A stretch of 48,194 bases of DNA, taken from NCBI GenBank assembly GCA_037442505.1, contig JBBIPZ010000014.1, positions 1-48,194 of the forward strand. The letters run 5' to 3'. Both the position numbers and the translations under genes were made by a program. Below the pieces are notes generated by a model. It made no database searches. It was given only the letters and a program-made list of their open reading frames with translations, and was not told the origin of the DNA. Source of the stretch: JBBIPZ01 sp037442505 [NCBI: Deltaproteobacteria bacterium] (GTDB lineage: Bacteria; CALINM01). Below are positions 45,446 to 48,194 of the stretch, piece after piece (the stretch's first letter is position 1; every line of letters starts with the position of its first letter).

Positions 45446-45535
45446 TAACCCCTCTTTGCCAAAGAGGGGAATAATGAAAATGTGAGATTTCATAATGTTT
45501 TCACATTTGCTAAAGGGGGGCTAAGGGGATTTGTC
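45446..45535. repeat. Composite dispersed repeat, family B (CCCCTCTTTG hairpins)
   Basis: A 9-bp stem CCCCTCTTT/AAAGAGGGG (45449-45457, 45461-45469) is followed by an AAATGTGA/TCACATTT dyad (about 45478-45507) and an inverted GCTAAAGGGGGGCTAAGGGG arm. It looks like two divergent copies in opposite orientation. No gene in 45379-45574. Confidence 0.55.
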
Positions 45536-45544
45536 ATTCTGAGG
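45531..45544. repeat. Partial dispersed repeat, family A
   Basis: TTGTCATTCTGAGG matches the first arm of the element at 30858-30928. Only one arm remains. Confidence 0.35.
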
Positions 45545-45574
45545 AAATTGGTATATTATCAAAAGAAAAAAAGC

Positions 45575-45603
45575 TTGACAAAAAAATACAGTTTTGATTA
45601 AAT
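45575..45603 (+). promoter_or_regulatory. Promoter of the barrel/CbiMN unit
   Basis: TTGACA (45575-45580), a 17-base spacer and TTAAAT (45598-45603). The predicted start near 45610 is the first base of the leader hairpin. Confidence 0.6.
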
Positions 45604-45609
45604 AACATT

Positions 45610-45668
45610 AAGCCACGAAGGCTTGTTCACAGGTTCGGAAATCTGTGATGGGCGTTGTGGCTTTTTTT
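45610..45668 (+). terminator. Leader terminator ahead of the barrel gene
   Basis: A 7-bp closing stem (45610-45616 with 45657-45663), an internal hairpin and T residues at 45662-45668 would stop transcription before the Shine-Dalgarno. It is one of the two states of the leader RNA. Confidence 0.6.
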
Positions 45669-45712
45669 ATGCCCGCCCACAACAAAATCACAAATTAAAA
45701 AGGAGTGACGTT
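45610..45712 (+). ncRNA. Structured leader RNA with alternative hairpins (candidate riboswitch/attenuator)
   Basis: The roughly 103-base leader can fold in competing ways. AAGCCAC (45610-45616) pairs with GTGGCTT (45657-45663), directly followed by a U tract, forming a terminator that encloses an 8-bp hairpin (TCACAGGT/ATCTGTGA, 45627-45634 and 45641-45648). Alternatively AAGCC pairs with GGCTT (45620-45624), and GTTGTGG (45654-45660) pairs with CCACAAC (45677-45683), which would dismantle the terminator. I could not match it to the cobalamin, NiCo, fluoride, GEMM, TPP, glycine or guanidine classes. Function is inferred from the fold and from the metal-importer gene downstream. Confidence 0.6.
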
Positions 45713-46465
45713 ATGAAGAAAGTTTTGGTTGTACTAATTTTGTCTTTGCTGATTTTTAGTAAGTCTTATGCAGCACATCCTTTGATAACAGATGATACGG
45801 GGACTCAAGGCACAGGCAAATTTCAATTAGAACTAAATAGTGAATATGGTATTGACAAAGAGGATGGAGTTACTACTAAAACATTTGAATTTGCACCTAC
45901 TCTTAGTTATGGATTAACAGACGATATTGATATTGTGATAGGTGTGCCTTATCAGCACATAAAGGTTGAAGACACCTTTACAACGAAAGAAAGCGGAATA
46001 TCTGACTCCTCCATTGAAGTTAAATGGCGTTTTTTCGACAAAGATGGGTTAAGTTTAGCTTTGAAGCCTGGTGTTTCGATACCCACAGGTGATGAAAACA
46101 AGGGATTAGGGTCTGGAAAAGTTGGCTATTCTGCATACTTAATATTAACTAAAGAGCTTAAGCCGTTAAATCTTCACATTAATTTCGGGTATATTAGAAA
46201 CGAAAACGAGTTTGATGAGAGAAAGAATATATATCATGCTTCCATAGCAGGCGAATACGAAGCGACGGAAAAATTGAAAATTGTTGCAAATATTGGATCT
46301 GAGACAAATCCCGATAAGACTGACAATACGTCCCCTTCATTTGTTTTAGCAGGGGTAATCTATTCGGTAACAGAAAATATAAGCATTGATGCTGGCTATA
46401 AATTTGGATTAAACACGCCAGAAGTTGACAATACTTATTTAGTTGGAATTGCATTAAAATTTTAA
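45713..46465 (+). CDS. Exported beta-barrel protein (phenol-degradation MetA-like/transporter family)
   Basis: A 250-residue protein with a signal peptide (residues 1-20, cleavage after SYA) and a mature N-terminus AHPLITDDTGTQGTGKFQLE. Alternating strands and a C-terminal aromatic residue (LKF) indicate an outer-membrane barrel of the Phenol_MetA_deg type. ATG 45713 follows AAGGAG; the open frame back to 45623 runs through the leader terminator and is rejected. It lies 18 bases before the CbiM fusion, so an outer-membrane entry role for nickel or cobalt is plausible but unproven. Confidence 0.78.
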   Translation: MKKVLVVLILSLLIFSKSYAAHPLITDDTGTQGTGKFQLELNSEYGIDKEDGVTTKTFEFAPTLSYGLTDDIDIVIGVPYQHIKVEDTFTTKESGISDSSIEVKWRFFDKDGLSLALKPGVSIPTGDENKGLGSGKVGYSAYLILTKELKPLNLHINFGYIRNENEFDERKNIYHASIAGEYEATEKLKIVANIGSETNPDKTDNTSPSFVLAGVIYSVTENISIDAGYKFGLNTPEVDNTYLVGIALKF

Positions 46466-46483: not shown

Positions 46484-47530
46484 ATGCACATGGCTGATGC
46501 TTTGCTTTCTCCGCAAGTTGGAGTAACTTTTTGGGCTGCTTCGATAGGTGGTATTGCATATAGTGTTAAGAAACTCAAAAAAAATATGGATGAAAAGATG
46601 ATCCCGTTGATGGGAGTAATGGGAGCATTTGTTTTTGCTGCCCAGATGATTAATTTTACTATACCAGCTACAGGTTCGAGTGGACACCTTGGAGGAGGTC
46701 TATTACTATCAGCAATTTTAGGCCCTTATGCAGCCTTTATAGTGATGGCATCTGTTTTGACTATTCAGGCATTATTTTTTGCGGATGGAGGATTACTTGC
46801 TTTAGGATGTAACATATGGAATTTAGGATTTTACACCTGTTTTATTGCGTATCCTTTTATTTTTAAACCACTTGTAAATTTAGAAAGCGGGAAAAAGCTT
46901 TTTATTGCCTCTGTTTTTGCTGCTGTTATAGGGTTACAGTTGGGCGCTTTTTCTGTTGTTCTTCAGACATTGTTGTCAGGGAAGACTGAACTGCCTTTTG
47001 CTACGTTTGTTATGTTAATGCAGCCTATTCATTTAGCGATTGGGTTTGTTGAAGGAATAGTTACAGCTGCTGTTTTAAAATTTGTTATGTCTGCGCGTCC
47101 TGAGATTTTATATGGTTCAATTAATCAAAAACCTTTACCAGAAAATCTTTCATACAAAAAACTGATTATAGGTTTATTGTTAACTACGATTTTGACTGGT
47201 GGTGCCTTAAGCTGGTTTGCTTCTTCAAATCCAGATGGTCTTGAATGGTCGATAGAAAAGGTTTACGGTAAACCAGAACTTCCCGAGCACGAGACTGGCA
47301 TCGTCTCAGTCTTAAAAAGTATACAGGAAAAAATCGCCTTTTTACCTGACTATTCATTCAAAAAATCAGAAAAACCTGATGCAGAAAATGTTGCGAAAGA
47401 ACAAGAAGAAAGCTGGCCTGCTATTGATACGGGTACTTCTTTTTCAGGAGTTTTAGGCTCTTTAATAGTCATTATCTTAACTATTGGCACATCATTTTTA
47501 ATCAAAGCTTTTAAGAAAAAAAACGCATAA
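46484..47530 (+). CDS. cbiM: CbiM-CbiN (NikM-NikN) fusion, cobalt/nickel ECF importer substrate component
   Basis: A 348-residue membrane protein. The N-terminal MHMADALLSP has the conserved Met-His metal-binding start. About six to seven hydrophobic segments of CbiM/NikM follow (about residues 1-205), including SSGHLGGGLLLSAILGP and LQPIHLAIGFVEG-like segments. The second part (about 222-348) has two membrane helices and the PDGLEWS signature of the PDGLE domain, a CbiN-like partner. AGGAGG lies seven bases before the ATG. The CbiQ transmembrane and CbiO ATPase genes expected next are absent; a terminator follows. Ni2+ versus Co2+ cannot be decided. Confidence 0.88.
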   Translation: MHMADALLSPQVGVTFWAASIGGIAYSVKKLKKNMDEKMIPLMGVMGAFVFAAQMINFTIPATGSSGHLGGGLLLSAILGPYAAFIVMASVLTIQALFFADGGLLALGCNIWNLGFYTCFIAYPFIFKPLVNLESGKKLFIASVFAAVIGLQLGAFSVVLQTLLSGKTELPFATFVMLMQPIHLAIGFVEGIVTAAVLKFVMSARPEILYGSINQKPLPENLSYKKLIIGLLLTTILTGGALSWFASSNPDGLEWSIEKVYGKPELPEHETGIVSVLKSIQEKIAFLPDYSFKKSEKPDAENVAKEQEESWPAIDTGTSFSGVLGSLIVIILTIGTSFLIKAFKKKNA

Positions 47531-47542
47531 TAACAAACACCT

Positions 47543-47577
47543 TAAAGGCAGATTTTTTAAATCTGCCTTTATCTTTT
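47543..47577 (+). terminator. Intrinsic terminator after the CbiMN gene
   Basis: AAAGGCAGATTT (47544-47555) pairs perfectly with AAATCTGCCTTT (47559-47570) over a 3-base loop, followed by ATCTTTT. It closes the barrel/CbiMN unit, so no cbiQ or cbiO can be co-transcribed. Confidence 0.8.
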
Positions 47578-47606
47578 GACAAAAATCAATCAAATGTTGC
47601 TATAAT
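47576..47606 (+). promoter_or_regulatory. Promoter of the cupin gene
   Basis: TTGACA (47576-47581), a 19-base spacer and TATAAT (47601-47606) with an upstream TGC (extended -10). A second TATAAT lies at 47613-47618. The start is followed by AAGGAG before the ATG. Confidence 0.5.
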
Positions 47607-47639
47607 TCTTAGTATAATGTAAGAAAAAAGGAGACGCAC

Positions 47640-47963
47640 ATGGCAGACACACCATTAGGTAAAGCTGTAATTTTAGACAGTTTTATTAATTATCAAGAAG
47701 CGTCAGTAGTTAGTCGTGAACTTTTAAGAAAAGATAAGGGCACAATAACACTTTTTGCATTTGACCAGGGACAGGGTTTAAGCGAACATACTGCGCCTTT
47801 TGATGCAACGGTATATATCATTGATGGCGAAGCAGAAATAACTATATCAGGTAGTGTTCACACAGTAAAGGAGGGAGAGCTTATTATAATGCCTGCCAAT
47901 CAGCCGCATTCATTATTTGCGAGAAAACCTTTCAAGATGTTGTTAATAATGATTAGATCCTGA
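47640..47963 (+). CDS. Small single-domain cupin protein
   Basis: A 107-residue cupin_2 barrel. Motif 1 is partly visible as GLSEHTAPFDATVYIIDGEAEI (one histidine and the late glycine) and motif 2 as PANQPHSLFA with a histidine, enough for a metal site with two or three ligands. AAGGAG precedes the ATG. Monocistronic with its own promoter. Such small cupins are often annotated only as cupin domain proteins, and no substrate can be assigned. Confidence 0.8.
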   Translation: MADTPLGKAVILDSFINYQEASVVSRELLRKDKGTITLFAFDQGQGLSEHTAPFDATVYIIDGEAEITISGSVHTVKEGELIIMPANQPHSLFARKPFKMLLIMIRS

Positions 47964-48071
47964 ATGTGGGAAAACATAAATAAAGTTGCATTTATTTGCT
48001 TATCTGGTATAACCAAAAAACATGGTAAAAACTATTTGAACCTTTTAATAACTTCAAACTCAAAAAATTTA

Positions 48072-48194
48072 TTATTTTTCTCTATTAATTGACACTGTTT
48101 TTATGGCTTTAGCCAGATTTTCTTCTTTCATTCTCCTGGTTATATTTCCAGTTATCTTTGTTTCCCCCTTTGAAAAAGGGGGGAGCCAAAAAGG
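48072..48194 (-). other. Possible C-terminal end of a gene entering from the right edge
   Basis: A - strand frame open to the window edge reads TKITGNITRRMKEENLAKAI and ends TVSINREK, then TAA at 48072. Composition is protein-like, but the first part overlaps the dispersed repeat at 48161-48194, so it may be a relic. No family recognised. Between 47964 and 48071 only a weak AAATAAA/TTTATTT hairpin (about 47977-47996) is seen. Confidence 0.25.
48161..48194. repeat. Dispersed repeat, family B
   Basis: CCCCCTTT/AAAGGGGG with a 3-4 base loop and flanking AGCCAAAAAGG, similar to the elements at 45446-45535. It may continue beyond the window. Confidence 0.5.

Follow-up and report, generated by a model that had tools for sequence, protein, structure and literature searches.

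The window, by which we mean the whole 48,194-nt stretch of a deltaproteobacterial contig (JBBIPZ010000014.1) that was analyzed, carries near its end a leader followed by two genes, whose features are collected in Table 1. No CbiQ or CbiO gene neighbors the CbiM-PDGLE gene in the part of the window from 46484 to 48194, where a terminator and a cupin gene come next, so the remaining parts of the transporter are probably encoded elsewhere. Two similar imperfect palindromes with C-rich and G-rich arms, CCCCTCTTTGCCAAAGAGGGG and a relative, are found at 45449-45469 and 48164-48183, and are possibly copies of a dispersed repeat.

Table 1. Features of the leader and its transcription unit in the window, and, in the last row, diverged DUF3842 genes of other genomes
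Feature	Position	Strand	Basis or remarks
Promoter-like sequence TTGACA-17-TTAAAT	45575..45603	+	Consensus match only; TTGACA 45575-45580, TTAAAT 45598-45603
5' hairpin H, AAGCC-ACGAA-GGCTT (proposed antiterminator and recognition site)	45610..45624	+	Stem 45610-45614/45620-45624, loop 45615-45619
Intrinsic terminator T	45610..45668	+	Outer stem 45610-45618/45655-45663; inner hairpin 45628-45635/45640-45647; U tract 45662-45668
CCACAAC, putative downstream antiterminator arm of the earlier note	45677..45683	+	Pairing possible in the window and a few relatives; not conserved
AAGGAG, likely ribosome-binding site	45700..45705	+	Read in the sequence
Outer-membrane barrel protein, Phenol_MetA_deg family (PF13557), candidate metal channel	45713..46465	+	Pfam 6.8e-21
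CbiM/NikM fused to a PDGLE (CbiN/NikN-type) domain	46484..47530	+	Pfam 4.4e-61 and 6.4e-30
Hairpin with T-rich tail, which would end the unit	47543..47571	+	13-pair stem
Diverged DUF3842 genes behind nikR	G358:C6:119031-119679; G363:C1:657923-658569		Also in G327, G335, G396, G399, G402 and G405

An earlier note on this DNA had described an attenuator-like leader before a metal-import unit. We found that the segment 45608-45669 (62 nt) folds as a single long imperfect hairpin with a U tract at -27.4 kcal/mol (z -6.28; none of 200 shuffles was as stable), and the PF13557 barrel and CbiM-PDGLE genes downstream bear out the rest of that description. The stem AAGCCAC/GTGGCTT (45610-45616 with 45657-45663), followed by the T run at 45662-45668, is present and is larger than had been claimed; the strands GGCTT (45620-45624), GTTGTGG (45654-45660) and CCACAAC (45677-45683), which were to form the alternative pairings, also lie where the note had put them. 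When the leader is folded over its full 107 nt, the structure of lowest energy has H and lacks T (-31.1 kcal/mol, z -2.47). Within the segment, T is predicted at -27.4 kcal/mol versus -15.4 kcal/mol for H plus the inner hairpin, and folding of successive prefixes gives H, then H with the inner hairpin, and from about nucleotide 52 on T. The 9-mer pattern CCANGAAGG occurs twice in the window versus 1.07 times expected, which is not above chance; the evidence for the leader rests on the fold and on its relatives.

The note had also proposed a promoter that sets the 5' end of the RNA at the first base of the stem. The sequence TTGACA-17-TTAAAT agrees with the consensus at 10 of 12 letters by our count by eye, and it is absent from the computed promoter list of the window because its second hexamer lacks an A at position 2. 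Across the family described below, a promoter placing the 5' end at the stem was found in 7 of 106 members versus 2.06 +- 1.44 in shuffles, a weak enrichment, and a fixed promoter position relative to the hairpin is accordingly weakly supported.

Relatives of CbiM provided 80 loci (L001-L080), of which 19 also contain a match to the barrel (E <= 0.01); a search of viral contigs for CbiM relatives found none. The upstream regions share a recurring CCACGAAGG that opens a hairpin closing with TTCGTGG and a T run. On both strands of 862 kb this motif occurs 33 times, versus about 6.6 expected at equal base frequencies, and it is missing in several loci that have, as judged by eye from the DNA, a nikR-like gene immediately upstream (L006, L009, L014, L053). 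Counting the window, 27 of 81 loci have the leader at most 2.3 kb upstream of cbiM, so the fold recurs in related genomes, as the proposal of the earlier note requires; this count takes the loci of the pattern search, omits L009, whose match falls within the coding sequence of the barrel, and adds L020 and L042, which a geometry scan supplied. The leader-bearing loci belong to Nitrospirae, Deltaproteobacteria/Desulfobacteraceae and Bacillota, including Desulfoscipio and Moorella. The geometry scan, run with an RNGRA loop over L001-L080, gave 24 places, 18 of which lie at most 2.3 kb upstream of cbiM in 17 loci, and it misses other loci that the pattern search detects; reversed sequence gave 4 places and six shuffles gave 1-4. 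When any loop was allowed, ACGAA appeared 12 times upstream of cbiM and every other loop at most once.

A search model of the leader, R2, matched 42 of 149, 49 of 148 and 26 of 100 genomes in the phyla of G005, G013 and G009, which we take, with the titles of L012, L022 and L029 as a guide, to be Bacillota, Desulfobacterota and Nitrospirota. The leader thus belongs to a conserved RNA family of several bacterial phyla. At least 10 tandem pairs of matches, chosen by eye from the match lists and then measured, were seen, nine of them spaced 3-16 nt, as expected of attenuators in series. Variants occur as well: at L001:5120-5230 and L004:48-160 the 5' motif is kept and the terminator is absent, and a predicted hairpin in L001 covers the ribosome-binding site, so that a translational version of the leader may exist. 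At L020:3720-3790, in Moorella sulfitireducens, two successive 5' hairpins with ATGGA loops precede one terminator, a layout resembling the dual hairpins of ANTAR targets.

We built alignments of 25, 42 and 107 sequences (A1, A2 and A3), the last holding 107 of 118 non-duplicate leaders; the eleven omitted (L078, L112:9115, L145, L146, L148, L149, L188, L193, L196, L203, L223) are near-copies, weak or very short, and several of the short ones look real. In all three alignments one 5' strand has two possible partners, forming either H or T. In A3 the T helix (columns 7-16 with 69-78) is paired in 95.0% of 1,070 cells, two-sided changes affect 6 pairs and 91 cells, and none of 500 shuffles scored as high on any of five measures. 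The H helix (columns 7-11 with 17-21) is paired in 89.9% of 535 cells, with 73 cells changed on both sides; two of the five measures do not exceed shuffles, because only three H pairs vary. Both helices are specific to their register, since sliding the strands reduces pairing to 30-49% for T and 10-54% for H. Because R2 modeled T and not H, T is favored by the selection of matches, while the covariation of H was not fitted. The covariation sought by the earlier note is present in both helices, one of which, H, is the AAGCC/GGCTT pairing of that note. The second pairing proposed there, GTTGTGG with CCACAAC, can form in the window (z -1.28) and is not conserved: over the 107 sequences the mean z is -0.26, with 7 of 107 below -2 and a slight overall tendency (t -2.4).

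Because a pattern resembling CCACGAAGG served to choose the first seeds, the CC/GG pairs are invariant in A1-A3 partly by construction. The diverged copies L042, L251 and L236 have CT/AG in place of the inner CC/GG of H, as does L255, which has in addition a G-U pair further out. The loop of H reads ACGAA in 64 and ATGAA in 32 of the 107 sequences (together 96 of 107) and fits R-N-G-R-A in all 107. Its G14, A15 and A16 are kept in 10 of 10, 9 of 9 and 12 of 12 sequences in which the partner in the terminator is unpaired, which shows a conservation of the loop that does not depend on its pairing in the terminator. About 15 nt make up the conserved core, and the second, inner hairpin is variable.

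These properties bear on two readings that need no RNA switch. An ordinary terminator or dispersed palindromic repeat might stand before the barrel gene by chance: the CCACGAAGG...CCTTCGTGG palindromes resemble intergenic repeats, and a few R2 matches (G001:C33, G001:C95, G014:C85) look like ordinary terminators. The distribution of matches contradicts this explanation, with 1-5 in 111 of 117 leader genomes (some of them antisense matches of palindromic copies) and, at the best-scoring places, a next gene that is mostly one of metal uptake; so do the conserved, asymmetric loop and the covariation of H. The background of R2 is also low, with a match in only 2 of 116 genomes that have NikR and no DUF3842, and in 0 of 6 other genomes at a threshold of 0.01. 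We consider a chance terminator or repeat very improbable. A DNA operator for a repressor would account for the near-palindrome AAGCC-ACGAA-GGCTT, which in the window lies near the point where transcription is expected to begin, but the conserved center is not palindromic, the paired changes involve a strand about 45 nt away followed by a T run, copies occur in tandem, and the position relative to the promoter is hardly fixed. Of all the explanations weighed here, it is the one to which we give the least credence.

The genes behind the leader indicate what it controls. R2 matches precede genes for CbiM/NikM, NikA-type proteins, NiCoT, TonB/ExbB, TonB-dependent receptors, barrels, DUF3842 and FmdE. 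At the best-scoring places we assigned Pfam families to 72 first genes, which come from 80 loci after dropping 3 without a recognized element and 5 without an open reading frame; three of these places were already known from L010, L059 and L121, and a few are weak matches. Among the 25 of 34 families listed, the tallies by family were CbiM 12, OprB 10, TonB-receptor plug 8, PF13557 4, TonB_C 4, SBP_bac_5, DUF4198, DUF3842, FmdE and ExbB 3 each, CobN 2, and NicO, FecCD and Peripla_BP_2 1 each. Metal-uptake families thus make up most of the first genes. Targets that are not specific to nickel are present too, namely OprB porins, a CobN-type chelatase and binding proteins of the Fe-siderophore type. 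On the strength of the leader, importers, porins and TonB systems whose substrate is unassigned, the barrel of the window among them, are probably nickel/cobalt genes. In L206-L209, L211, L212 and L216 porin-like proteins, candidate outer-membrane nickel channels, lie behind the leader.

The Desulfoscipio geothermicus genome (G005) has 16 R2 matches at 15 places, one of them antisense, and 11 places lie on a single contig. By reading translations, we named its targets as CbiM, a TroA/ZnuA-like binding protein, an ABC ATPase, a NikA-like binding protein, DUF3842, FmdE-type proteins and methyltransferases. The 11 clustered copies (L111, L112 and L113, 86-134 kb of the contig) are accompanied by genes for NikA-like proteins, FmdE-type proteins, ABC transporters and SAM methyltransferases, and the cluster may be an island devoted to a metallophore or to nickel handling.

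A further comparison is with the nickel repressor NikR, for which we counted 18 of 149 genomes in Bacillota, 65 of 148 in Desulfobacterota and 44 of 100 in Nitrospirota. Leader and NikR occur together in 0, 4 and 0 genomes of these phyla, versus 5.1, 21.5 and 11.4 expected, or in 4 of 397 genomes overall versus 38 expected. Fisher tests give 0.0036, 1.5e-10 and 1.3e-8, values that overstate independence and are not strict probabilities because genomes within a phylum are related; the exclusion nevertheless recurs in three phyla. In G172 and G182, which are among the four shared genomes, the leader match is single and weak and DUF3842 is absent; these matches may be false. Sites of NikR type were found upstream of cbiM in 4 of 27 leader loci versus 26 of 54 other loci, and the operator GTGTTAC-N13/14-GTAACAC had no match near 45.6 kb of the window with up to 3 mismatches allowed. 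The best reading is that several bacterial groups use the leader family in place of NikR. A 2009 survey reported NikR from less than half of the organisms that have NikABCDE, which was taken to suggest NikR-independent regulation (PMC2667541).

The protein family DUF3842 follows the leader closely. We obtained the result for Desulfobacterota first and predicted the co-occurrence for the other two phyla ahead of searching them. DUF3842 is present in 39 of 42 (Bacillota), 44 of 49 (Desulfobacterota) and 24 of 26 (Nitrospirota) leader genomes, a total of 107 of 117 in which the call for one Nitrospirota genome, G372, rests on a fragment. The corresponding counts for genomes without an R2 leader are 35 of 107, 11 of 99 and 9 of 74, or 55 of 280. 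In six loci (L002, L003, L113, L132, L143, L195) the leader stands directly before DUF3842 itself, as expected of an autoregulated factor, and a diverged leader does so in L251 and L236. About 11 Nitrospirota DUF3842 loci that we read have no leader upstream of DUF3842. Among seven DUF3842 loci from genomes without an R2 leader, L245, L251 and L255 have a leader-like hairpin ahead of DUF3842 and L243, L248, L252 and L254 have none.

Only 11 of 127 NikR genomes contain DUF3842. Eight of these are Nitrospirota, in which nikR is followed, after about 30 bp and in the same orientation, by a diverged DUF3842 (129-141 bits; Table 1), suggesting a nikR-DUF3842 operon in the NikR-bearing members of that phylum. 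The main form of DUF3842 travels with the leader. Taken together, the diverged form after nikR and the co-occurrence with the leader place DUF3842 in nickel homeostasis in both settings, and the former also fits a general nickel-handling role. An alignment of 33 DUF3842 sequences contains an invariant DGQGGGIG motif, an invariance that is partly by construction because the sequences were chosen with a looser glycine-rich motif. The predicted model has high confidence (pLDDT 94.6) and is Rossmann-like; fold searches returned common Rossmann-type matches with no RNA-binding domain seen among them, and a sequence search of the PDB found no relative. A predicted fold of this kind neither supports nor excludes RNA binding by DUF3842.

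These observations were obtained by computation: the family, its two covarying helices with the geometry of a switch, its target genes, the exclusion of NikR and the co-occurrence with DUF3842. With them in hand we hold it very probable that the leader is an attenuator of nickel/cobalt import. As an overall explanation we favor, with slightly more confidence than doubt, a nickel-responsive attenuator used instead of NikR and probably worked by DUF3842 through H. As the RNA emerges, the small 5' hairpin, with the form N-A-G-C-C / A-N-G-A-A loop / G-G-C-U-N, would fold first. Its 5' strand and loop would double as one arm of T, the other arm of which follows about 40 nt further on, so that H and T could not form together. 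With both arms transcribed, T would be the more stable and the import genes would be off; the predicted preference for T at that point fits a default-off switch that needs a holder. Because H contains the 5' arm of T, whatever holds H would cause read-through. Under nickel shortage a factor, for which DUF3842 is the likeliest candidate, would bind and hold H and RNA polymerase would read through; in nickel excess the factor would let go of H and transcription would terminate. That direction of response is suggested by the gene content: as the genes import metal, the simplest logic has the factor on H at low nickel and released at high nickel. The regulon and the exclusion of NikR point to nickel as the signal, and cobalt is possible too. 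The step given to DUF3842, which would make it an RNA-binding factor, is tentative, and we stop somewhat short of an even chance for it. Several findings weigh against the explanation as a whole: the lowest-energy fold of the full window leader with H, the DUF3842 genes of genomes without an R2 leader and of those with nikR beside them, the leader genomes in which DUF3842 was not detected, the absence of an RNA-binding domain from its fold matches, the targets that are not specific to nickel, and the loci L001 and L004 with no terminator.

The earlier note had favored a compact metal- or cofactor-sensing RNA. In such a direct riboswitch, H and the inner hairpin would bind Ni2+ or Co2+ and shift the balance of H and T, and DUF3842 would be just a member of the regulon or a nickel-handling protein. 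A compact RNA with a conserved loop, kept across phyla before metal importers, speaks for this explanation, and the diverged DUF3842 beside nikR suggests a role apart from the leader RNA. Against it, a conserved core of some 15 nt is small for an aptamer and the second hairpin is variable, and the presence of DUF3842 in so many leader genomes and so few NikR genomes is left unexplained. We regard direct sensing as unlikely, and since DUF3842 accompanies the leader so closely, a protein factor is no less likely than a sensing RNA. Another RNA-binding protein might hold H in the same attenuator, with DUF3842 acting upstream or in parallel. The 10 of 117 leader genomes without a detectable DUF3842 and the lack of an RNA-binding signature among its fold matches speak for this; the very strong co-occurrence and the DUF3842 genes directly behind leaders speak against it, and we think it less likely again than direct sensing.

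If the attenuator worked by DUF3842 is correct, it would be a form of RNA-level control of nickel uptake of a kind for which we found no report, either of the leader RNA or of DUF3842, in the open-access PMC literature. The family is in any case a concrete candidate for NikR-independent nickel control in sulfate reducers, Firmicutes of the Desulfoscipio/Moorella type and Nitrospirota, and DUF3842, a small protein, gains its first functional hypothesis. A broader and more speculative possibility, which we rate a little below the DUF3842 step itself, is that the leader represents a cross-phylum attenuator class replacing NikR, with DUF3842 the founder of a new family of Rossmann-like antitermination proteins that bind RNA and respond to metal; in some genomes DUF3842 would also regulate its own gene.

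We compared the leader with known classes of RNA and regulator. Rfam 15 reported no family at threshold over the window leader or the other leaders scanned, so the Rfam search called for in the earlier note leaves the leader outside the known families; the best permissive match over 45540-45740 was atoC (19 bits, E 0.36), and other Rfam classes were rejected. The cobalamin riboswitch is the classical leader of cbiM-type genes. Its model (RF00174) spans 189 positions and has no match in the window, in agreement with the note's view that the leader is not of this class. RF00174 likewise had no gathering-score match at the leader of the 22 leader-bearing loci among 29 scanned, a set to which the leader-bearing L019, L052, L070 and L078 do not belong, though it detects copies elsewhere in L012 and L041. 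In these two loci the riboswitch is separate from the leader, so cobalamin control exists beside the leader system.

The NiCo (czcD) riboswitch is, as here, a metal-linked leader RNA. In the available part of a 2022 review of metal-regulatory RNAs it is the only nickel-linked riboswitch named, and it is described upstream of putative cation efflux genes (PMC9294342). Whereas it controls efflux, the window unit is an importer and import families dominate the 72 first genes; the class had no gathering-score match in the window and none among the permissive matches over 45540-45740. NikR controls nikMNQO-type and other nickel importers (PMC545781, PMC2667541) and occurs in the same phyla as the leader; it is a DNA-binding repressor, whereas the leader would be an RNA device.

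In its proposed way of working the leader resembles two kinds of protein-bound antiterminator, whose defining sequence features it lacks. In ANTAR systems (EutV/NasR/AmiR) a small protein-bound hairpin loop overlaps an arm of the terminator, and the overlap of hairpin and terminator arm is present here. ANTAR targets have two hairpins with hexanucleotide loops carrying A at position 1 and G at position 4 (PMC3369931), whereas the leader has a single pentaloop with G at position 3. The RAT of the BglG/SacY type is, as here, a single hairpin that overlaps and excludes a terminator. It is 29-30 nt long (PMC3369931), whereas H is about 15 nt long and its whole loop lies inside the terminator arm. 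The leader nevertheless has, by computation, what defines an attenuator in general: mutually exclusive hairpins in the leader of a gene, one of them an intrinsic terminator.
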